The position numbers were made by a program, and so were the translations under genes. Positions 6,057-23,904 of a stretch of DNA of 32,875 bases are shown piece after piece. Position 1 is the first letter of the stretch. Each line of letters begins with the position of its first letter. The stretch is from a virus, in the IMG/VR virus record IMGVR_UViG_3300034118_000632, positions 1 to 32,875 of that record, one strand, 5' to 3'. Under the pieces are notes generated by a model that saw only the letters and a list, made by a program, of their open reading frames with translations, ran no database searches and was not told the origin of the DNA.

Positions 6057-6479
6057 ATGATTCGAGAACGATTGGTGAATGACTCGCTGCTGATCTCTCC
6101 GCGATCGCAAACGAACACGCAGACGAATACAGCAAATCTTGACACCAAGGGGGCAAACTACGCCACCATTCGTGTCGCGTTTGCCAGTGAGCTGAACACG
6201 AACGCCGTTGGGCCTACGCTTGTTCTGTCACATTCTGACGACACGGTAGTGACGAATTTTGCAACGCTTGACACACAAACAGGCTTGGATTTGACTGCCG
6301 CGCGTGAAGTGCATTACGGCGTCGACCTGCGAGGCAAAAAGCGATACCTGCGACTGGCCGTCACCACAGCAACTGCGACCAACGACAATGTCACGTTTGC
6401 CGCAGTGGCAACACTCAGCGACCTCGAGAATTCTCCGAACGGAACGACCAGTGTGGCTGACACGACAGTGTTTGTGTAA
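6057..6479 (+). CDS. Small structural protein, possible capsid decoration protein
   Basis: Unrecognised 140-aa protein encoded directly behind the major capsid gene, with a good Shine-Dalgarno (AAAGGGGAAA) before ATG 6057. The sequence is rich in Thr, Asn, Asp and beta-prone segments (VGPTLVLSHSDD, YLRLAVTTATATNDNVTFAAV) and has no cysteine, signal peptide or membrane segment. This pattern and position resemble small beta-rich decoration or head-fibre proteins of other phages, but no motif proves it. It may share an mRNA with the capsid gene through the weak hairpin at 6000-6022. Its stop overlaps the next start (TAATG). Confidence 0.5.
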   Translation: MIRERLVNDSLLISPRSQTNTQTNTANLDTKGANYATIRVAFASELNTNAVGPTLVLSHSDDTVVTNFATLDTQTGLDLTAAREVHYGVDLRGKKRYLRLAVTTATATNDNVTFAAVATLSDLENSPNGTTSVADTTVFV

Positions 6480-7069
6480 TGAGCGGAAGCACGATCAATT
6501 ACGAGGCTGTCGCACCTTGGATGCAAGGGAAAGCCTTTAACGTCTACACACAATTTGGTGAGGACGGATTGATCGCGTTTGCGCTTGATAAAATTGGACC
6601 GAAAAACCGTCACTGCTTTGAAATTGGAGCAGCTGACGGTCGGTTCTTTTCCAATACATTACGACTTCGCGAACTTGGCTGGTATGCGGTGCTGATTGAG
6701 GCCGACCAGCGGCACTTTAACAAACTGCAGGCTGAATTCGGGCAGCAGTCAGCGTGCATTTTCGGAACGTGCGGTGACCTGGATGACATGCTCATTCGAA
6801 CCACAATCAACCGCACGCCTGACCTCGGAATTATCGACATTGACGGACAGGACTATTGGCTTTGGCACGACATGGTTGAAATCAGGCCGCGAGTCATGCT
6901 CGTGGAAATCAGCACGCAGGGCCGATCAATGCCAGTTCCTTTGCGTGGCGAGCCATACCCGGCACAGGCCGGACTTGAACAAATAACGCAGCTTGGAGCC
7001 TCAAAAGGTTACACGCTCGTCGCAACAACTTACTGCAACGCTCTTTTTATAGAAAACTCATGTCTCTGA
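6479..7069 (+). CDS. FkbM-like SAM-dependent methyltransferase
   Basis: Probable class I methyltransferase of 196 aa. It shows an SAM-binding motif I (HCFEIGAADGRFFSNT, about residues 41-56), an acidic ribose-binding motif II (VLIEAD) and IIDIDGQDYWLW. The latter resembles the IDIDGNDYW motif in FkbM-related enzymes often encoded beside glycosyltransferases; these commonly O-methylate sugars. It is inserted between the capsid and connector genes, an unusual place for an enzyme, and overlaps the methyltransferase-glycosyltransferase gene by 10 bases, so the two are probably co-translated and act together. Substrate unknown: a virion glycan or a host surface sugar are the obvious options. Confidence 0.65.
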   Translation: MSGSTINYEAVAPWMQGKAFNVYTQFGEDGLIAFALDKIGPKNRHCFEIGAADGRFFSNTLRLRELGWYAVLIEADQRHFNKLQAEFGQQSACIFGTCGDLDDMLIRTTINRTPDLGIIDIDGQDYWLWHDMVEIRPRVMLVEISTQGRSMPVPLRGEPYPAQAGLEQITQLGASKGYTLVATTYCNALFIENSCL

Positions 7070-8187
7070 AACTGAACATCGGTGCTGGCTCAACTGTTAT
7101 TCCCGGATTCACCCCGATCGACCGCAAGTTCGGTTCGGAGGCGTTTCCGTTGCAGTACGCCGACAATTCCGTGGATGAGATCAGAGCCTCGCACATCCTC
7201 GAGCACTTCAGCTTTGCGGACGCCCAGGAAGCCCTAAAGGAATGGACGCGAGTTCTGAAGCCCGGCGGACGTATTCGGCTGGCGGTTCCAGACATTGAGG
7301 CGAAGGAAAAGGCAGATCCGGACGAGTGGCCATTTATTATCATGGGCGGACAAACTGACGACAACGACTTTCATAAATCAGCATGGAACGAAACACGCCT
7401 ACGGGCTCACATGGAGCACTTCGGACTGCAAAGCGTCAAGCGATGGGAATCGCCAAACACAGACACGGCGGCTCATCCATGCTCATTGAATTTAGAGGGC
7501 GTGAAGCCAGCGGCAGCCGCCAAGAAAGCATTGACCGTAAAAGTCGGTGCGTATTTGACTCTTCCGCGTTACGAAGCGGTCGCAGCCAGAACGATCATTG
7601 AGCAAGCTTTGAAGCCACATAAGATTGACCTCACGACAACGCAAGGCGTGTTCTGGGGCCAGTGTATGCAACGCATGTTTCAAGACGCTGTCGACAAAAA
7701 CATCGACTGGATTCTGTCACTGGATTCAGACAGCCTTTTTAATCAAAAGCATATTTCCGATTTGTTCGCGCTGTTTGCGGCGAATCCACAGATCGACGCT
7801 TTGGCAGCTTTGCAGTGTCGACGCGGCGGAAAGTATCCGCTGATGACGACTGGCACCGGCGTGCAGGATGAACACGTACAAGTCGACGGCCGGCCGATCA
7901 AGGCGACAACGGCTCATTTTGGCCTCACGCTCATTCGCGTCAATTCATTGCGTGATGTGAAGAAGCCATGGTTCTGGTCGCAGCATGATGAAAGCGGCAA
8001 CTGGTCAGATAACAAGCTCGATGATGATATTTGGTTCTGGCATCAGTGGCGACTGGCCGGCAAGACGATTTACGTGGCTCCTTCAGTGTCGATCGGGCAT
8101 CTAGAAGAAACAGTTGCGATGTTCGATTCAGACTTGCAACCCAAGCACATCTACGTGCATGAATGGCGAAAGGAAAACGGGCTGTGA
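7060..8187 (+). CDS. Methyltransferase-glycosyltransferase fusion protein
   Basis: Two-domain enzyme of 375 aa. Residues 1-145 form a class I methyltransferase: KLNIGAG (motif I), IDRKFGSEAFPL, ADNSVDEIRASHILEHF and LKPGGRIRLAVPDI. After a short Ala/Lys linker, residues about 155-375 look like a GT-A glycosyltransferase: VGAYLTLPRYEA, a DXD-type SLDSDSLF for metal and nucleotide-sugar binding, and a C-terminal LDDDIWFWHQW and GKTIYVAPSVSIGHLE. The methyltransferase core begins at residue 4, which supports the ATG at 7060 despite no clear Shine-Dalgarno. The fusion suggests coupled sugar transfer and methylation on one acceptor; the acceptor is not known. Confidence 0.7.
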   Translation: MSLKLNIGAGSTVIPGFTPIDRKFGSEAFPLQYADNSVDEIRASHILEHFSFADAQEALKEWTRVLKPGGRIRLAVPDIEAKEKADPDEWPFIIMGGQTDDNDFHKSAWNETRLRAHMEHFGLQSVKRWESPNTDTAAHPCSLNLEGVKPAAAAKKALTVKVGAYLTLPRYEAVAARTIIEQALKPHKIDLTTTQGVFWGQCMQRMFQDAVDKNIDWILSLDSDSLFNQKHISDLFALFAANPQIDALAALQCRRGGKYPLMTTGTGVQDEHVQVDGRPIKATTAHFGLTLIRVNSLRDVKKPWFWSQHDESGNWSDNKLDDDIWFWHQWRLAGKTIYVAPSVSIGHLEETVAMFDSDLQPKHIYVHEWRKENGL

Positions 8188-11323: not shown

Positions 11324-11619
11324 CGGCACTTCGGCTGGCTGAATTTGTCGAGCACACAACAGACGTTGATGGAATGATGGATCGAATGACGCACGCTCAG
11401 TTCGACGAGTGGTGTGCAAAGGATTTAATCGAGCCGATCGGAAGTCGCGGAACGAACGAAATCATGACTCGGCTGGCAATGATGATTGCGGGATTTCTTG
11501 GGCAGGAAAACGTGAGCCCAGCAGCGTTTGCGTGGTGGATCGAAAGCAAAAAGGACAAGCCTGTCGATGATGATGTTGCGATTGCGGCATTGGAGGCGAT
11601 AGGAGCAAGGAAAACCTGA
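10925..11619 (+). CDS. Tail assembly chaperone, -1 frameshift fusion (gpGT-like)
   Basis: The long form made when the ribosome slips back one base at 11293-11299. Reading then continues from 11299 in the -1 frame, without a stop to 11619, giving LRRSHRRLTALRLAEFVEH, then MMDRMTHAQFDEWCAKDLIEPIG. The fusion would be 231 aa (125 + 106). The downstream domain includes ARMAQFDEW-like and ends in AIAALEAIGARKT, consistent with the T part of gpGT. It would otherwise have only a weak internal start (ATG 11374, no good Shine-Dalgarno). The G and G-T pair is a general feature of long-tailed phages; the site here is seen directly, its use is inferred. Confidence 0.8.
11293..11299 (+). promoter_or_regulatory. 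Programmed -1 ribosomal frameshift site (A AAA AAC)
   Basis: A canonical X XXY YYZ heptamer in the correct frame: zero-frame codons AAA AAC at 11294-11299 preceded by A at 11293. The shift takes the ribosome from the frame of 10925 to the frame ending at 11619. Short GC-rich complementary segments downstream (AGCC 11309-11312 / GGCT 11318-11321) could form a stimulatory hairpin, but I cannot fold it. Confidence 0.85.
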
Positions 11620-13121
11620 TGGCTGTCATTGCTGGCGATCTCGTAACACGGCTGGGAATCGACGGTCGCAAGTTTCAAAGCGGTTTGCAAAACGCACGAG
11701 GCGAGGCACGCTCTTTCGTCGCGGACGTTGGCAAGATCGTTTCCGGGCTGGCGCTGTATGACATCGGCAAAAGTGCAGTCACAGGCATTTTCGGCCTTGC
11801 GAAAGAAACGGTGAATCTCGCCGCAACGGCGGAAACGGCGGCCGTCCAGTTCAAAGTGCTGACAGGTTCAGCGGAGTCTGCCACGGCTGTCATGGCGGAC
11901 ATCAATAAGTTTGCAGCGGATACACCGTTCGAATCGATGGAGATTACTGAAGCCGCGAAACAGCTGATTGCGTTTGGCGGAAATGCTGGAACTGTCATCA
12001 GTGAACTGCAGACGCTGGGTGACTTGTCGGCAGGCATGGGTATTCCACTTACGGAACTTGCCGAGCTGTATGGCAAAGCCCGAATTCAGGGGCGGCTGTT
12101 TATGGAGGACATAAACCAATTGCAGGGACGGGGAATAAATGTTACTGCTGAACTGGCTAAAGAGTTTGGCAATGTTCGTGACGCTGTCGAAAAAGGGCAG
12201 GTCAACTTTGGGCATCTTGAGCGTGCGTTAAAGGCGATGACATCGGAGGGCGGTGCGTTCGCGGGCATGATGCAGGACATGAGCAAGACGTTTGAAGGGC
12301 AAACATCCACACTCATGGACAATTTCAAAACGATCGGGAGAGATTTAGGCGAGATGGTGCTGCCAAAACTAACCGAAATCGTCAGCGAAGCGAATAAGAT
12401 TTTAGCCGCGTTCAATGCTCTCGGAGACGCACGCTGGAAGTTCCTTGGTGATGTGATCGTAGCCTCATTCGATGTTGGCATGGAAACAATCAAGCTTCAC
12501 TGGTCAGACATGCTGAACAGCATGATCGATCAGGTGAGTGAGATTGACTGGTCTGCATTGCTAAACCCGTTCGCTGGGGTGAATATCAACGATCTCAGGC
12601 CGGAGGGCAAGCCGCAGAACTTGGCAGACGCACAGGGGCGACTCAATGCCCTTATGGGCAAACTGGCAAATGCTGGTGCCCAAAATGACATGACGAAACC
12701 AGGCGCAGCGAATCCGGGGTTTAACCGGAAGTGGATGGATCGCGAAGTTCCGAGGACGACAGCAGAAGCGGCCACAAGTTTATTCGAAAAACTGCAGGGC
12801 AAGTTCGCCGGTGCAAAAATGGGTGCTCAGGGAATCGCAGACCGTGCAAAGATTCAAGCGGGAGCCCTGGGCGGAATGTTCGAGAACTGGTTCGGCTCGC
12901 CTGACTGGGAAAAGAACAAGCAAAAGCAAGAAGAGCCACGGCTTGCCGGAGCAATGCAGAAAGGATCTCAGGAGGCATTTTCCACGATCTTTGCGGCTAT
13001 GTTGAATCGCGGGAAAGATCCCGTTGTTAAGGCCACAGAAAAAGGTGCGGCAGCCGTCGTTAAAGCCATCAAAACAAATAAGCCGCAAATGATCTTGGCG
13101 ATGGGGGCGGTGAATCCATGA
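11619..13121 (+). CDS. Tape measure protein
   Basis: Sets tail length and is delivered through the tube. The 500-aa protein opens MAVIAGDLVTRLGIDGRKF, then SAVTGIFGLAKETVNLAATAE, and contains a TMP region, FKVLTGSAESATAVMADINKFAADTPFE...ITEAAKQLIAFG, which is the phage tape-measure N-terminal domain; residues 135-235 include the LYGKARIQGRLFMEDINQLQGRGI pattern. At only 500 residues it is short for the family, predicting a rather short tail. SD AAGGA lies about 8 bases before ATG 11619, which overlaps the chaperone stop by one base. Confidence 0.9.
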   Translation: MAVIAGDLVTRLGIDGRKFQSGLQNARGEARSFVADVGKIVSGLALYDIGKSAVTGIFGLAKETVNLAATAETAAVQFKVLTGSAESATAVMADINKFAADTPFESMEITEAAKQLIAFGGNAGTVISELQTLGDLSAGMGIPLTELAELYGKARIQGRLFMEDINQLQGRGINVTAELAKEFGNVRDAVEKGQVNFGHLERALKAMTSEGGAFAGMMQDMSKTFEGQTSTLMDNFKTIGRDLGEMVLPKLTEIVSEANKILAAFNALGDARWKFLGDVIVASFDVGMETIKLHWSDMLNSMIDQVSEIDWSALLNPFAGVNINDLRPEGKPQNLADAQGRLNALMGKLANAGAQNDMTKPGAANPGFNRKWMDREVPRTTAEAATSLFEKLQGKFAGAKMGAQGIADRAKIQAGALGGMFENWFGSPDWEKNKQKQEEPRLAGAMQKGSQEAFSTIFAAMLNRGKDPVVKATEKGAAAVVKAIKTNKPQMILAMGAVNP

Positions 13122-14334: not shown

Positions 14335-14784
14335 ATGTCAGATCCTGTAGTTGGATTCGACGCAAAAGGCGCAGAGCAATACAAAAAGATTGCTCGTGAG
14401 GTTATGCGTCGAATGATGAATCCCGCTCAGGTGCGAGGGCGTTGGCAGCAACGAGAAGGCGGTTCCGGCGGCGGCCATACAATGTGGTTTGTCATCGCTG
14501 ATGTTCTCTGCCCTGACGGCTATAAAGTCACGCAAAACACAATTCGAGTTACCCCGCTATGGTACACAGGAAACTGCGGCACAGTTCCGCCGGGCCGACA
14601 GGATGACGGATATTGGCACGTTTATGACATATGCAGTTATTTGTCTGGGCAGGTCGCTGACGATTTGCCCGGAACAACTGGCAGAGCGACGTATTACTAC
14701 CCGTACACAGCCGACGATTACGATCCCCCACCTTGCGTTCCGGCATGGATCTTGAGCGACCTTTGCGCACAGCCGGAGTGCTGA
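14335..14784 (+). CDS. Tail-region protein with Cys-rich C-terminus
   Basis: Unrecognised 149-aa protein. The N-terminal about 30 residues are helical and basic (YKKIAREVMRRMMNPAQVRGR); the middle is Gly-rich and then beta-like with WFVIADVLCPDGYKVTQ; the C-terminal third has closely spaced Pro, Tyr and Cys (PPPCVPAWILSDLCAQPEC). Six cysteines in all suggest a metal site or disulphides, as in the larger Cys-rich neighbour downstream. It may be a fibre or tip component. No signal peptide. It ends three bases before the next start. Confidence 0.5.
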   Translation: MSDPVVGFDAKGAEQYKKIAREVMRRMMNPAQVRGRWQQREGGSGGGHTMWFVIADVLCPDGYKVTQNTIRVTPLWYTGNCGTVPPGRQDDGYWHVYDICSYLSGQVADDLPGTTGRATYYYPYTADDYDPPPCVPAWILSDLCAQPEC

Positions 14785-14787
14785 CGA

Positions 14788-16014
14788 ATGCCATCACGCT
14801 ACCTTCGCAGATCGTCACCAGACAGGCTCAAGCCATGCTCAGAGCGAATGGTTGACGTTTGCGACATCGAAACGGCTGATGGCTGTTGTGGTGTGATTCC
14901 TTGCAAGCTTTGCATTGAATGGGAAACCTACGACGACGGCATCGCCTACGGTTCAGCGACATTCGCTGGCTCATCATGGACAGGCACGGTTGGCGGCCAT
15001 GCGTTTGTATCGTACTGGGAGAGGAATTACGAGACCGACGAATGCGAATATGTTGTTACTCTCGACGACGAGGAAGTGTACCGCGCGAACTGCTACGAGG
15101 GGGCAAGCTGCCGAGATCCGAGCGGCACGGTGGCAGTGGCAACGGCATATCTCGAAGGCACGTTGAGCTGGAGCAAGCACGAGCCACGAGAACTAGCGTT
15201 GATTGTTGATCCTGACACAGGCTGCAATGATTTCTTTTGCGGTGATTGCCGTTGCTCGTGTGATTGTCTTTGCGTAACGATTACGCCCTACAGCGGCGAT
15301 ATTGTCGCGGGTGAGATTTGCGATACGTCATATCATTGTGATCCGCCGGTCTGGGAAGGCACGGTCGGCTATTACGATCTGTCGATTGCGCTGGGCCGAG
15401 ACGATTACGGAAACTGCATTATCACCGTAACCTCGGACGGTGAGGAGCAAGAACCAGTTGCGGTGACCGGCTGTGCGGATTTGTCGGCGAGCGTCACGCT
15501 GCCAAATGGCGATCTGATTGAGGTTAGATGCAAGCAGTGTGACTGCGAAGAAATACCTCCCATAATCGGTGATTGCATTTGCGGCCGACCAATGGGTGAA
15601 ACGCTCAGGTTGCTTTGGTCATCTGGAAACGGTACGCATGGATCAGCAGCAAGAGAGTTTTTGCTGTATTATGGAATGCAGGACGAAGATGGGATCAGTT
15701 GCGAGCCGTGGTCGCCTAGTGCTTTTCCGGGATATCGCGGAAGCGTTTCAGGAACGTTTCCGTTGCCGATGGGTGGCACTCGGTCAGACACACTTGAAGT
15801 GATTCTAGTTTGCGAGTGTATCGGATGCACTTATTGCATATACTACCGGTGGCTGGAGGGCGACACGCCTACAACGTGGTATCAGCTCGCTTACACTGTG
15901 TCGAGTTGTGACTGCCCAGCGATATTAGACGTGATCGACGGGTTCACCTCTGGCAATCCATTCGGCTATCAGATTTCGGACGTTACGGTCTACGAACTGG
16001 AAAGCAACTGCTGA
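14788..16014 (+). CDS. Cysteine-rich repeat protein, candidate tail tip or receptor-binding protein
   Basis: Unrecognised 408-aa protein with 33 cysteines by my count (about 8%). Clusters include a C-rich knot near residue 150 (CNDFFCGDCRCSCDCLC), RCKQCDCEE, DCICGRP and VCECIGCTYC. Between them are beta-sandwich-like modules. Two show a matching pattern: SWTGTVGGHAFVS...CEYVVTLDDEE and VWEGTVGYYDLSI...CIITVTSDGEE, and a third more diverged unit follows (RLLWSSGNGTHG). So it is likely an internally repeated protein stabilised by metal or disulphide bonds. Position after the tape measure and tail-tip genes makes a host-contact role plausible. No secretion signal. The start ATG at 14788 has only a weak ribosome site. 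Confidence 0.55.
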   Translation: MPSRYLRRSSPDRLKPCSERMVDVCDIETADGCCGVIPCKLCIEWETYDDGIAYGSATFAGSSWTGTVGGHAFVSYWERNYETDECEYVVTLDDEEVYRANCYEGASCRDPSGTVAVATAYLEGTLSWSKHEPRELALIVDPDTGCNDFFCGDCRCSCDCLCVTITPYSGDIVAGEICDTSYHCDPPVWEGTVGYYDLSIALGRDDYGNCIITVTSDGEEQEPVAVTGCADLSASVTLPNGDLIEVRCKQCDCEEIPPIIGDCICGRPMGETLRLLWSSGNGTHGSAAREFLLYYGMQDEDGISCEPWSPSAFPGYRGSVSGTFPLPMGGTRSDTLEVILVCECIGCTYCIYYRWLEGDTPTTWYQLAYTVSSCDCPAILDVIDGFTSGNPFGYQISDVTVYELESNC

Positions 16015-16166
16015 TGTTACGACTGATCGGCGTTTTGTTTCTGGCTGTTGTCGCACAGTTTATTGTGCATGGATGGTCCGAGTTTGCGGCAGCCAGCGGA
16101 GATCATGCAGTGCAGTTATGGAAAAATGACCTCGCCCGATTAGCGGAGAAGGCTGGCCGTGAGTGA
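16014..16166 (+). CDS. Small membrane protein (50 aa), possible holin-like
   Basis: Short gene starting at ATG 16014 that overlaps the Cys-rich gene stop (TGATG) and runs to TGA 16166. The product begins MLRLIGVLFLAVVAQFIVHG, a hydrophobic segment of about 18 residues, then a polar helical part with Lys, Arg, Glu. It is a one-pass membrane or secreted protein. At this position in the genome such a protein could be a holin or spanin-like lysis factor, but there is no endolysin next to it, so I do not claim that. It overlaps the next gene by 8 bases. Confidence 0.5.
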   Translation: MLRLIGVLFLAVVAQFIVHGWSEFAAASGDHAVQLWKNDLARLAEKAGRE

Positions 16167-17406
16167 CTGTCAGTGCGAACTGTCTGGATTTTGCAGCGTG
16201 CGAAACGTCGCATTGAAGGTGACGCACCAGATGATTTGCCGGGAAAACAAGCCGCGAATTGACGCGATGCTGGCAGGTCAAAAGTGGGTCAATCCGCAGG
16301 CAAAGAAGGCTCCGCAGCGCAAGCCATGTAACACGGCGAAGCGTGGGCGATGCACCGACTGCTCCGACGCTGGCACACTCATGATGGCAGCGATTCAAGC
16401 TGACACGGGTCAGCCTGTTTCGTGCGGGAGTTGCAAGACCTACCTGTTGTCACTCAATCGCATGTCCGCACACGATCATGCGGCCATCGTCCAGAAACTC
16501 TACGCGGAAATCTCATGGCCTCCATCATGGCGAGCTAAACACGGTGATAAAGAAGGCCAGCGAAAACGGATCGGTGAAATCGTTTCGAGTGCTTTGGCAG
16601 TAGCCACGACGACTTGCGCAACGACGAGGCCAAAGCCAGCCCGCAGAGCAGTAGTACAAAAAAACATTCCGGCGGTCAGCAGGCAACCGCTGGCTCAGAT
16701 TACGCCAAGGCCATTCACTGAAAAGCCACGACTAACTCTGATTTTTCACTGCTGGCCGAATGGTGAAGGATGGAAGCGTCACGTTGATTATCTCCGGCCA
16801 GTCAGCGGAGTGTTCGACCGAAAGATAATGGGGGTCGCAACTGGGCCGGGCACGGCAACGCTGGCCGAAGTCCGGGCTGCGTTCGGAGACTCGTGGGAAT
16901 ACCTCGCAGTTAAGAACGACAAATCGCTGCGGGAGGTTGTGACCTATCGCACAATGCTGGAAATGGTGCGGTCAACAGACATAAACGATGTTACGTTTTG
17001 CTTGCACTCAAAGGGAGCACAAAGCCATACGGCTGCGAGTCGGCAAATCCAGTGGTGGACTGAGGCGATGTATTCGACAGTTGTCCACAACTGGCAGAAC
17101 GTGCTCAGCAAAATGGAGCAAGGCTATCCCGTAGTGGGTTCGTTTTTGCGAGTCGGTAAACACCTGCAGGCCCGCTATGGCTGGCATTTTTCAGGGACGT
17201 TCTACGCATTTCGAAATGCCGTAGCGTTTCAAAATGGCGCGCCTGGCTTTGCCAGTAACTTCTACGGCACGGAATCATGGCCGGGGCATCATTTCGCGAG
17301 GCATGAAGCAGCCTGCATGTTTGCTGAAAACTGCGGAGACATCTACAAAGAAAACCCGCAATTGGAATTGGAACTTAACGAGTGGAGACGACTGAATGAA
17401 ACTTGA
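16159..17406 (+). CDS. Cys-rich zinc-binding-like domain plus glycosyltransferase-like domain
   Basis: Unusual 415-aa two-part protein. Residues 1-105 hold about ten cysteines: C4, C6, C12, C27, then PCNTAKRGRCTDC and SCGSCKTYLLSLN; this looks like one or more zinc-binding modules. After a Pro/Arg/Lys-rich linker (about 145-190), residues 190-410 resemble a glycan-related transferase: LTLIFHCWPNGEGWKRH, FCLHSKGAQSH, WWTEAMYSTVVHNW, and YGTESWPGHHFARHEA. The C-terminal half reads like rhamnan-synthesis/GT-type enzymes seen in other bacterial surface loci, but I cannot name a family. GTG start at 16159. It is followed by methyltransferase and dioxygenase genes, suggesting a modification cassette. 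Confidence 0.5.
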   Translation: MSDCQCELSGFCSVRNVALKVTHQMICRENKPRIDAMLAGQKWVNPQAKKAPQRKPCNTAKRGRCTDCSDAGTLMMAAIQADTGQPVSCGSCKTYLLSLNRMSAHDHAAIVQKLYAEISWPPSWRAKHGDKEGQRKRIGEIVSSALAVATTTCATTRPKPARRAVVQKNIPAVSRQPLAQITPRPFTEKPRLTLIFHCWPNGEGWKRHVDYLRPVSGVFDRKIMGVATGPGTATLAEVRAAFGDSWEYLAVKNDKSLREVVTYRTMLEMVRSTDINDVTFCLHSKGAQSHTAASRQIQWWTEAMYSTVVHNWQNVLSKMEQGYPVVGSFLRVGKHLQARYGWHFSGTFYAFRNAVAFQNGAPGFASNFYGTESWPGHHFARHEAACMFAENCGDIYKENPQLELELNEWRRLNET

Positions 17407-17923
17407 AATCGGCGGCGGAAATGATTTTGCGAGAGGCGACGGTTGGACCAACATGGACCAACTGCCGGGGGCGGACATTCAGCACGATCTGAACGTAAGA
17501 CCGTGGCCACTGTCCGACGACAGCGTTGACGCAATTTACACGTCGCATTGCATTGAGCACGTTCAATGCCCGATCAGCTTTCTGCATGAGTGTGCTCGAA
17601 TCGGCAAGGTCGGATGCACGGTTGAAATCCGTTGTCCAAGTCCTTATTCAGACCTCGCAATGGTCGCGGGGCACGTGTCCGTTTTTTCTCCGCAAGCCGC
17701 GCGAAACATGGACGTGCATTTTCCGAGACTATTTTGGAAAGACAAGAAACGCCCTCGGCTTGTGTCCTGGCATTTCGGAGCAAATGAGCGTCTGCATGAG
17801 GCGAAGCAGGAGCTGCCGTTTCTCAAGGGCCTCTCCGATCACCTGATCATGAAATACATTCCGGGTTGTGCTCACGAAACAGTTTTTCAGTACGTCATTC
17901 AGGCCAATGAATATGCCAGCTAA
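17396..17923 (+). CDS. SAM-dependent methyltransferase, type 11-like
   Basis: Class I methyltransferase of 175 aa: KLEIGGGNDF at the N-terminus (motif I), WTNMDQLPGADIQHDL (acidic residue for SAM), LSDDSVDAIYTSHCIEHV (post-motif) and a C-terminal region VEIRCPSPYSDLA, MDVHFPRLFW. The enzyme core begins at residue 2, supporting the ATG start at 17396, which overlaps the preceding gene by 11 bases. It resembles the N-terminal domain of the 7060-8187 fusion in motif order. A partner for the GT-like protein is likely; target unknown. Confidence 0.7.
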   Translation: MKLEIGGGNDFARGDGWTNMDQLPGADIQHDLNVRPWPLSDDSVDAIYTSHCIEHVQCPISFLHECARIGKVGCTVEIRCPSPYSDLAMVAGHVSVFSPQAARNMDVHFPRLFWKDKKRPRLVSWHFGANERLHEAKQELPFLKGLSDHLIMKYIPGCAHETVFQYVIQANEYAS

Positions 17924-18470
17924 GGTGATCGAAAACGTAATTCCTCGTTCGCTTGTCCTCGCCGCTGAGGCGGCATGGCCATCGCCTGAATGGCCCTATT
18001 GGCACCGCTACAACGGAGCGACCGCAAACAAATACGGATCAATGGATCGCAGCCGAATTCCTCCAGCCTGCATTGCGGCTCTCGATGCGCTGGCGTTGGC
18101 GGTCGCAGATCAAATCGGGGATTCCTTTATCGACTACGATCTGCACGCGGCTGGAATGCACATGATGCCTCCAGGTGGATTTCTCGGAAGACATCTTGAC
18201 GCTGAGTGTCACCCGATCAGGCCGTGGAAAAGAACTCACTCGATCGTGCTGTCGCTGAACGAAACCATGGGCGGCAATCTCATCCTTGAGGGCATCGGCA
18301 AGTTTTCACCGGAGCCAGGGAGAGTAATTGTGTTCGAGACGGCTAGCCAGTGGCATGAGGTCACGCAAGTAGCGGCTGACTCGCAGTGGCGCAAAACGCT
18401 GGCCCTGTTCGCATGGCAGATTGACCACAATTGCGACGGCAGGACATCTGCGAACTTTCAGAAGTCATAG
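17907..18470 (+). CDS. 2-oxoglutarate/Fe(II)-dependent dioxygenase
   Basis: Probable prolyl-hydroxylase-like oxygenase, 187 aa from ATG 17907. It has the iron ligands H96-x-D98 (GRHLDAE), distal H150 (QWHEV), and R162 (WRKTLALFAW) for 2-oxoglutarate, in the right order and spacing for the double-stranded beta-helix fold; THSIVLSLN, GGNLILEGIG and EPGRVIVFETAS are strands of that core. Such enzymes hydroxylate protein side chains, sugars or nucleic-acid bases. The start overlaps the methyltransferase gene end by 17 bases (ATG 17913 is an alternative). Location next to transferases suggests it creates the acceptor hydroxyl; that is inference. Confidence 0.75.
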   Translation: MNMPAKVIENVIPRSLVLAAEAAWPSPEWPYWHRYNGATANKYGSMDRSRIPPACIAALDALALAVADQIGDSFIDYDLHAAGMHMMPPGGFLGRHLDAECHPIRPWKRTHSIVLSLNETMGGNLILEGIGKFSPEPGRVIVFETASQWHEVTQVAADSQWRKTLALFAWQIDHNCDGRTSANFQKS

Positions 18471-20267: not shown

Positions 20268-20459
20268 GGCAGATCGTTTTTGTCCGGCCCGCTGTCAACG
20301 GCGGCGGGCGAATCTGCCTCAGAGCCTGCTGCATTGAAAAATGATTTTCAACGGCTGGCCCCCGCAAGCCAATGAAGGCGCGGCAGGCTCTGAATTTGTT
20401 ATCCCTGTGAACAGTCCGCCAGCGGTGGCGTTTACGGTCGTCAATGGCTGTTCACAGGG
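20268..20459 (+). repeat. Three tandem palindromes upstream of csrA
   Basis: Palindrome 1: 20268-20274 with 20312-20318 (7 bp), inside it GCCCGC 20287-20292 with GCGGGC 20304-20309. Palindrome 2: 20320-20329 with 20383-20392, a perfect 10 bp, inside it TTGAAAA/TTTTCAA near 20334-20350. Palindrome 3: 20403-20414 with 20448-20459, a perfect 12 bp, followed by a T5 tract 20462-20466, so it looks like a terminator, or an attenuator before the CsrA gene. The 258-base gap 20230-20487 holds no convincing gene. Confidence 0.6.
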
Positions 20460-20487
20460 TGTTTTTCTCTCAATGAAAGGACTTCAA

Positions 20488-20757
20488 ATGCTAGTGCTCA
20501 GACGGGCTGTTTCGGAAGAGATCATTATCACGGTCGGCGAAGAAACGATCGTCGTCAAGCTGGTTGACACAATCGGAACTAATCACGCACGGCTCGGCTT
20601 CACCGCATCAAAGAACGTGCGGATTGATCGCAAGGAAATTCACGACGCCATTCAGGAAACTGGCTTTAACCCGGAGGCGTTTCCAATCGCTCCGCTCGTG
20701 CCAGTGATTCGAATCGGCGATCGTCTTCCGGGCGAACTCATGCGGAGGAAAGTGTAA
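20488..20757 (+). CDS. csrA: CsrA-family RNA-binding regulator
   Basis: RNA-binding protein that normally represses or activates translation by binding GGA motifs near ribosome sites. The 89-aa protein shows MLVLRRAVSEEIIITV at the start, the VxLVDTIGTNHARLGFTA core and NVRIDRKEIHDAI, the signature of CsrA, including the conserved R6 and the R of DRKEI (R48) that contact RNA. A family member is usually about 60 residues; here a 35-residue extension follows. ATG 20488 has AAGGA (20476-20480), which is itself a CsrA-type GGA site, so autoregulation is possible. An open frame continuing upstream through the palindromes is rejected as a longer start. Confidence 0.85.
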   Translation: MLVLRRAVSEEIIITVGEETIVVKLVDTIGTNHARLGFTASKNVRIDRKEIHDAIQETGFNPEAFPIAPLVPVIRIGDRLPGELMRRKV

Positions 20758-21008
20758 TGACACGACGCAAGAAAGCCGGGAAGAAATCCAACAGGCTGCA
20801 CGCTTCAGTCGATCGCAAGCCAATGACGCGAGATCCATCATTAGAAGAGATTTGGGGCACTGAAGCAACTATCGGACTGGCGGAATCGATCCGCATGGAA
20901 CGGCCTGATCTTCCAGAGGACAAAGGCTTGTATCGGCCGTCACAGATTCGTGAGTGTTCGACGCAAATGCTTCCAAGTGGCAGCGGCGTTTTGAGGGGGC
21001 AGGGATGA
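20757..21008 (+). CDS. Small protein, copy 1 of a duplicated module
   Basis: Unrecognised 83-aa protein. The first 20 residues are basic (TRRKKAGKKSNRLHASVDRK); the rest, from KPMTRDPSLEEIWGTE on, including IRMERPDLPEDKGLYRPSQI and RECSTQMLPSGSGVLRGQG, is nearly the same as the C-terminal part of the product at 23439-23903 (53 of 63 residues). The DPSLEEIW segment is a common opening of small phage proteins. It overlaps csrA by one base and RusA by four. No catalytic motif. Confidence 0.55.
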   Translation: MTRRKKAGKKSNRLHASVDRKPMTRDPSLEEIWGTEATIGLAESIRMERPDLPEDKGLYRPSQIRECSTQMLPSGSGVLRGQG

Positions 21009-21009
21009 G
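20816..21009 (+). repeat. 194-bp duplicated segment, copy 1
   Basis: Aligns without gaps to 23711-23904, about 162 of 194 bases identical by hand count. It covers the C-terminal part of the 83-aa gene up to and including the ATGAG start of the next gene (RusA here, HNH endonuclease at the other copy). Reading frame is the same in both. Confidence 0.9.
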
Positions 21010-23442: not shown

Positions 23443-23903
23443 CACGAATAGCCACAGATAACCACATGCACGAATTACTCGAACAAATTGCAGCGATGCC
23501 GCTTGCCCAGAAAGTGGCGGCTATTAACGACCTAAAGCGAATGATTCACGATGTGAGCCCATTTAAGGACGAACCTGTCGATTGCGTGCTGTGGATCGCA
23601 TCGGAAAACATCACGGCAAACGAGTACAACCCCAACAAGGTCGCGCCGCCAGAGATGGAATTGCTGGAGGTGTCAATCGTCAATGACGGCTACACGCAGC
23701 CGACAGGTCACAAGCCAATGACGCGAGATCCATCGCTCGAAGAAATCTGGGGCACGGAAACAACGATCGGGCTGGCAGAAATGATCCGATTGGAACGGCC
23801 TGATCTTCCACAGAATAAGGGGCTACATCGGCCTTCACAGATTCGGCAGTGTTCAACGCGGATGCTTCCAGGCGGTCGCGGCGTTTTGAGGGGGCAGGGA
23901 TGA
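23439..23903 (+). CDS. ParB-like N-terminal remnant fused to a duplicated module
   Basis: A 154-aa chimera. Residues 40-90 look like the start of a ParB/Srx-type nuclease domain (VDCVLWIASENITANEYNPNKVAPPEMELLEVSI, ending NDGYTQP). But the following core that carries the conserved GFHR/K region is missing; instead residues 91-154 continue as a second copy of the DPSLEEIW module (KPMTRDPSLEEIWGTETTIG). So it looks like a deletion-fusion or domain swap. ATG 23439 overlaps the previous stop. The ParB part cannot be catalytic as it stands. Confidence 0.6.
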   Translation: MTRIATDNHMHELLEQIAAMPLAQKVAAINDLKRMIHDVSPFKDEPVDCVLWIASENITANEYNPNKVAPPEMELLEVSIVNDGYTQPTGHKPMTRDPSLEEIWGTETTIGLAEMIRLERPDLPQNKGLHRPSQIRQCSTRMLPGGRGVLRGQG

Positions 23904-23904
23904 G
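23711..23904 (+). repeat. 194-bp duplicated segment, copy 2
   Basis: Partner of 20816-21009, in frame in the fusion protein and ending at the ATGAG start of the HNH gene. The last 25 bases or so are identical to copy 1, strongly at the 3' end. It could have been a site for homologous exchange between the two regions. Confidence 0.9.

Follow-up and report, generated by a model that had tools for sequence, protein, structure and literature searches.

T5 Llp and Cor are small receptor-blocking proteins that are encoded beside phage adhesins. Modular phage receptor-binding proteins (RBPs) combine an N-terminal anchor with an exchangeable receptor-binding domain (PMC10408124). Folds of the FGE-type C-type lectin (CLec) kind are general ligand-binding scaffolds (PMC6328139), and disulphides in the phage tail and baseplate have a precedent in Agrobacterium phage Milano (PMC10811340). 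Here we describe a locus in a virus record of 32,875 bp, referred to below as the window. The locus encodes CYS408, a putative member of a new family of modular phage adhesins with an unusually high Cys content. At a probability of about 0.68, we consider that CYS408 attaches an uncultured long-tailed phage to its host, with a scaffold, docking through a neighbouring 149-aa protein, and an exchanged tip that contacts the host. Feature coordinates are collected in Table 1.

Table 1. Features of the CYS408 locus, in window coordinates
Feature	Position	Strand	Remarks
Tape measure protein	11619..13121	+	TMP_3, PF20155
149-aa protein, putative adaptor	14335..14784	+	Backbone-specific N-terminus (aa 1-41); Gly hinge GGSGGGH (aa 42-48); conserved six-Cys C-terminal domain
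CYS408	14788..16014	+	408 aa, 33 Cys; proposed virion adhesin (receptor-binding protein)
Module 1	14884..15249	+	aa 33-154; homologous to module 2 (hhalign E 1.2e-6)
Turn NYETDE	15025..15042	+	Module 1, aa 80-85; insert site of a 235-aa FGE-sulfatase/C-type-lectin domain in 13 relatives
Block replaced in L015	15118..18560	+	Edges approximate
Module 2	15253..15546	+	aa 156-253; homologous to module 1; holds Cys co-variation C160/C178
Exchangeable C-terminal domain	15547..16011	+	Type B of at least nine types
50-aa protein gene	16014..16166	+	ATG shares TGATG with the CYS stop codon; a single hydrophobic segment, probably in the membrane, and a charged tail
415-aa protein, presumably glycosyltransferase-like	16159..17406	+	Third conserved gene of the cassette
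Methyltransferase and 2OG-Fe(II) oxygenase genes	17396..18470	+	Inside the exchanged stretch

Cysteine content and relatives of CYS408

The original prediction singled out this gene for the length and Cys count of its product, which translation of the open reading frame reproduces, and for an extreme Cys density of about 8%. At 8.1%, the density indeed exceeds the maximum of 7.2% (median 1.35%) among 486 other ORFs, each of at least 150 aa, from related contigs. Dense Cys clusters were also claimed, and runs such as CGDCRCSCDCLC (residues 151-162) are present, but close spacing is only mildly enriched, with 14 close pairs (CC, CxC or CxxC) observed against 7.8 expected given 33 Cys (P 0.02). 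The traits of CYS408 that stand out are its Cys density and the near-absolute conservation of its Cys. In the first 254 residues, 21 Cys are kept in all or all but one of 37 distinct sequences, and identity by column in the family is 96% for Cys versus 70% for other residues.

CYS408 gave no match in Pfam, the PDB or 50,697 phage records, and a PHROGs search returned nothing significant. Its sequence matches none of the known fibre, tailspike or RBP families, although such a match is not strictly required of an RBP, and a description of the family was not found in a literature search. A genome scan with a profile of the CYS N-terminal part found no relatives. Two scans of IMG/VR gave 49 CYS loci, including two distant ones of about 30% identity (L058 and L059). 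Comparison of the capsid, primase, helicase and methyltransferase with phage records revealed no close phage, and a terminase scan for the host returned only terminases of about 40% identity, mostly from Bacillota and Actinomycetota, which is uninformative on the host.

Repeat modules and exchange of the C-terminal domain

Two matching modules, each with W.GTVG followed by a motif resembling C..VT.DDEE, had been predicted, and profile-profile comparison confirms them. Modules 1 and 2 align with a score of 39.8, against a best score of 24.7 among 200 column shuffles and 11.9 for the reversed profile, and the alignment spans the W.GTVG and C....T.DGEE motifs. These two related modules account for the N-terminal ~254 residues of the protein and contain 23 Cys. 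A diverged third repeat, also part of the prediction, had to be rejected: no type of C-terminal domain matches module 1 or module 2, so there are two repeats, not three.

The same N-terminal part precedes at least nine C-terminal types that are unrelated to one another by sequence. The genome of one locus, L015, matches the window at about 99-100% identity for ~10 kb, from 4788 to ~15118 (CYS codon ~111), after which DNA identity drops from ~100% to none and similarity is found again only at about 18561. The identity break of L017 is also inside the CYS gene, at codons ~45-80, and that of L051 is at yet another point than in L015. As in modular RBPs, the distal domain is swapped and the anchor remains tied to its phage backbone. 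The exchanged stretch continues for ~3 kb downstream and holds the CYS C-terminus, the 50-aa gene, the 415-aa gene, the methyltransferase and the 2OG oxygenase. As it takes in these neighbouring enzyme genes, linkage rather than receptor choice could account for part of the exchange. The trio of 149-aa, CYS and 415-aa genes is kept on unrelated phage backbones, including that of L058 at 30% identity.

A lectin-fold domain inserted in relatives

In 13 of the 49 loci, a 235-aa domain lies between R79 and E85/C86 with the reading frame open throughout; the copy of CYS408 in the window is without it. The insert belongs to PF03781 (Pfam E about 1e-33), and its closest PDB match is the DGR protein TvpA (2y3c, E 8e-25). 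A frameshift as the cause of matches starting at residue 85 was rejected, since the frame is continuous through the inserted domain. All 13 inserts have one set of junctions and are joined with at least five C-terminal types, so that a single acquisition followed by reassortment would be the simplest history. The insert site aligns with the turn preceding a conserved Cys of module 2 (R79..C86 with R204..C210), suggesting that it is a beta-turn.

An active DGR was rejected because a reverse transcriptase was found in none of 17 records (mostly incomplete contigs) and because the variation in the insert is mostly at third codon positions (131 of 181 variable sites) and low in the stretch equivalent to the VR, where the final 120 of 705 nt hold 19 of the 181 sites and the domain end shows no hypervariable region. 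Within the insert, the motif GGGWNSTAAEC seemingly has Ser in place of one of the two Cys that we take to be catalytic in formylglycine-generating enzyme.

Neighbouring genes

The 149-aa protein contains six Cys, as the original prediction of a Cys-containing neighbour would have it, and is encoded upstream of CYS in 46 of the 49 loci (tblastn). Its homologues have N-terminal types of 48 aa, ~133 aa and ~175 aa, with 432 aa in L058 (different structural genes), and by eye these types appear to track the upstream tail genes. The protein may therefore be regarded as a candidate adaptor that docks CYS408 on the tail. In the late operon, the tape measure gene is followed by genes for 279-, 122- and 149-aa proteins and then by CYS408, and there are few other adhesin candidates. 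The predicted tail-tip or receptor-binding position gains indirect support from this place after the tape measure protein, the adaptor-like neighbour, the exchangeable C-termini and the lectin-fold insert. The original prediction mentioned neither the swapping of domains, nor the FGE insert of relatives, nor the gene for the 50-aa membrane protein. In two loci an ORF is inserted between the 149-aa and CYS genes (L023, 9339-10001; L038, 3335-4033); a Pfam search with it was silent, and an HNH homing endonuclease was suspected by eye.

The 50-aa gene was previously unlisted, being absent from ORF lists with a 60-aa limit. A frame of 48-67 aa, similarly laid out, follows CYS at the same place in most loci, and five of the six pairs of such frames that were compared differ mainly at third codon positions. 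The sequence of the 50-aa protein tracks the C-terminal type of CYS, with a median alignment score of 108 within types versus 23 between them. A lipobox signal peptide was not visible by eye in most versions. It is tempting to speculate that the product is a cognate envelope protein, for example one that masks the receptor.

The 415-aa protein has no Pfam match above cut-off, and its glycosyltransferase-like function is presumed from related sequences. Several methyltransferase, glycosyltransferase-like and 2OG-oxygenase genes are found at 6479-8187 and 17396-18470, the second group being swapped with the CYS C-terminus. Other features of the window are a 197-nt direct repeat, 83% identical (20813-21009 and 23708-23904), which is inside two coding frames and has copies in several related contigs, and a CsrA-like regulator at 20341-20757 (PF02599, E 1.5e-10).

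State of the cysteines and role of CYS408

Both metal binding and disulphides had been put forward for the Cys clusters, and the pairwise gain and loss of Cys now favours disulphides and disfavours metal. Among 36 close-family sequences, 22 have both C160 and C178 and 14 have neither, with no discordant case; the Fisher p of 2.6e-10 is uncorrected for kinship, and these counts are of sequences rather than independent events, at least three joint changes being required on the tree. Two Cys of the type B C-terminus also co-vary (7 both, 7 neither). The number of Cys is even in 27 of 31 C-terminal domains and odd in 28 of 31 N-terminal parts, while for other residues it is even in 8-21 of the 31 sequences. 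The scaffold Cys left over by the odd count may stay free or bond to another chain. The cytoplasm in which tail proteins fold is normally reducing, which counts against disulphides in CYS408, and the window ORFs compared with Pfam did not include a recognisable thiol oxidase. Folding in the cytoplasm would suit a metal-stabilised tail protein whose Cys clusters bind zinc or iron-sulphur, and the CxxC, CxC and CxxCxCxC runs at the module borders resemble metal ligands. However, we regard this as quite improbable, given that Cys in the family are gained or lost in twos and not fours, that C-terminal domains hold even numbers of them, and that CYS408 matches no zinc or Fe-S family.

A receptor-binding role for CYS408 is likely because of the exchange of its C-terminus, the FGE/C-type-lectin insert of its relatives and the adaptor-like 149-aa protein; the adhesin reading is thus one from genetic architecture. 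In such an adhesin, disulphides would probably hold the first ~254 residues together as a rigid scaffold. The 149-aa protein would bind the tail through its backbone-specific N-terminus and carry CYS408 on its conserved C-terminal domain. Contact with the host surface would be made by the CYS408 C-terminal domain, joined in some relatives by the lectin-fold domain on the module 1 turn, and swapping of tip domains between phages would alter the binding target. CYS408 could instead be a structural or decoration protein of the virion, such as a tip plug or an anti-shear coat, as its N-terminal scaffold is conserved and presumably rigid and Milano stiffens its tail by disulphides (PMC10811340). 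We find this improbable, since at least nine unrelated C-termini and a lectin-fold insert fit specificity better and the late operon offers no better adhesin candidate. Very improbable, in our view, is a protein outside the virion that acts on the surface of the infected cell together with the 50-aa membrane protein and sugar-modifying enzymes. The overlap with the membrane protein gene would agree with it, as would the sugar enzymes encoded in the same cassette or exchanged stretch, but a signal sequence is absent from CYS408 by eye, and the gene has a fixed link to the 149-aa gene, whose N-terminal type is specific to the tail genes. The host-attachment reading could also be extended, in a form that we consider unlikely, to a portable cassette of adaptor, disulphide-locked adhesin, cognate 50-aa membrane protein and sugar enzymes that moves between unrelated backbones. 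Here the membrane protein would match the tip and, in the infected cell, mask the receptor that the tip binds, and a covalent bond would link the scaffold, through its odd Cys, to a partner subunit.

If CYS408 is an attachment protein, it would represent a new adhesin scaffold of uncultured phages, unmatched in the searched reference libraries, and would make it possible to recognise attachment proteins in many viral contigs that lack annotation. Nearly identical phages that differ in their tips would then be natural pairs for linking tip to receptor. CYS408 also lets one ask directly whether phages make tail proteins with many disulphide bonds, and its relatives provide a case of a putative phage tail protein in which an internal turn bears an entire lectin-fold domain.

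Comparison with known systems

The 50-aa protein resembles T5 Llp and Cor in being small and predicted to be envelope-directed, in adjoining a putative adhesin gene and in changing with the adhesin; most versions, unlike Llp and Cor, are without a lipobox Cys. With Milano, CYS408 would share disulphides in tail proteins, but the structural proteins of Milano average 2.1% Cys against 8.1% in CYS408, and the two are not compared as homologues (PMC10811340). Like the DGR variable proteins Mtd, TvpA and TaqVP (PMC6328139), relatives of CYS408 carry an FGE/CLec domain; the nearest solved structure to that of the relatives is TvpA. In the CYS relatives, however, the domain sits in an internal turn and not at the C-terminus, no reverse transcriptase was detected in 17 records, and there is little variation at the VR end. 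With modular phage RBPs (PMC10408124), the proposed system shares a backbone-bound anchor, an exchangeable distal domain and swaps across unrelated backbones. In contrast to these RBPs, the anchor and binding part are here split over two proteins, and the scaffold is Cys-rich, built of repeat modules and unlike any known fibre or tailspike sequence.
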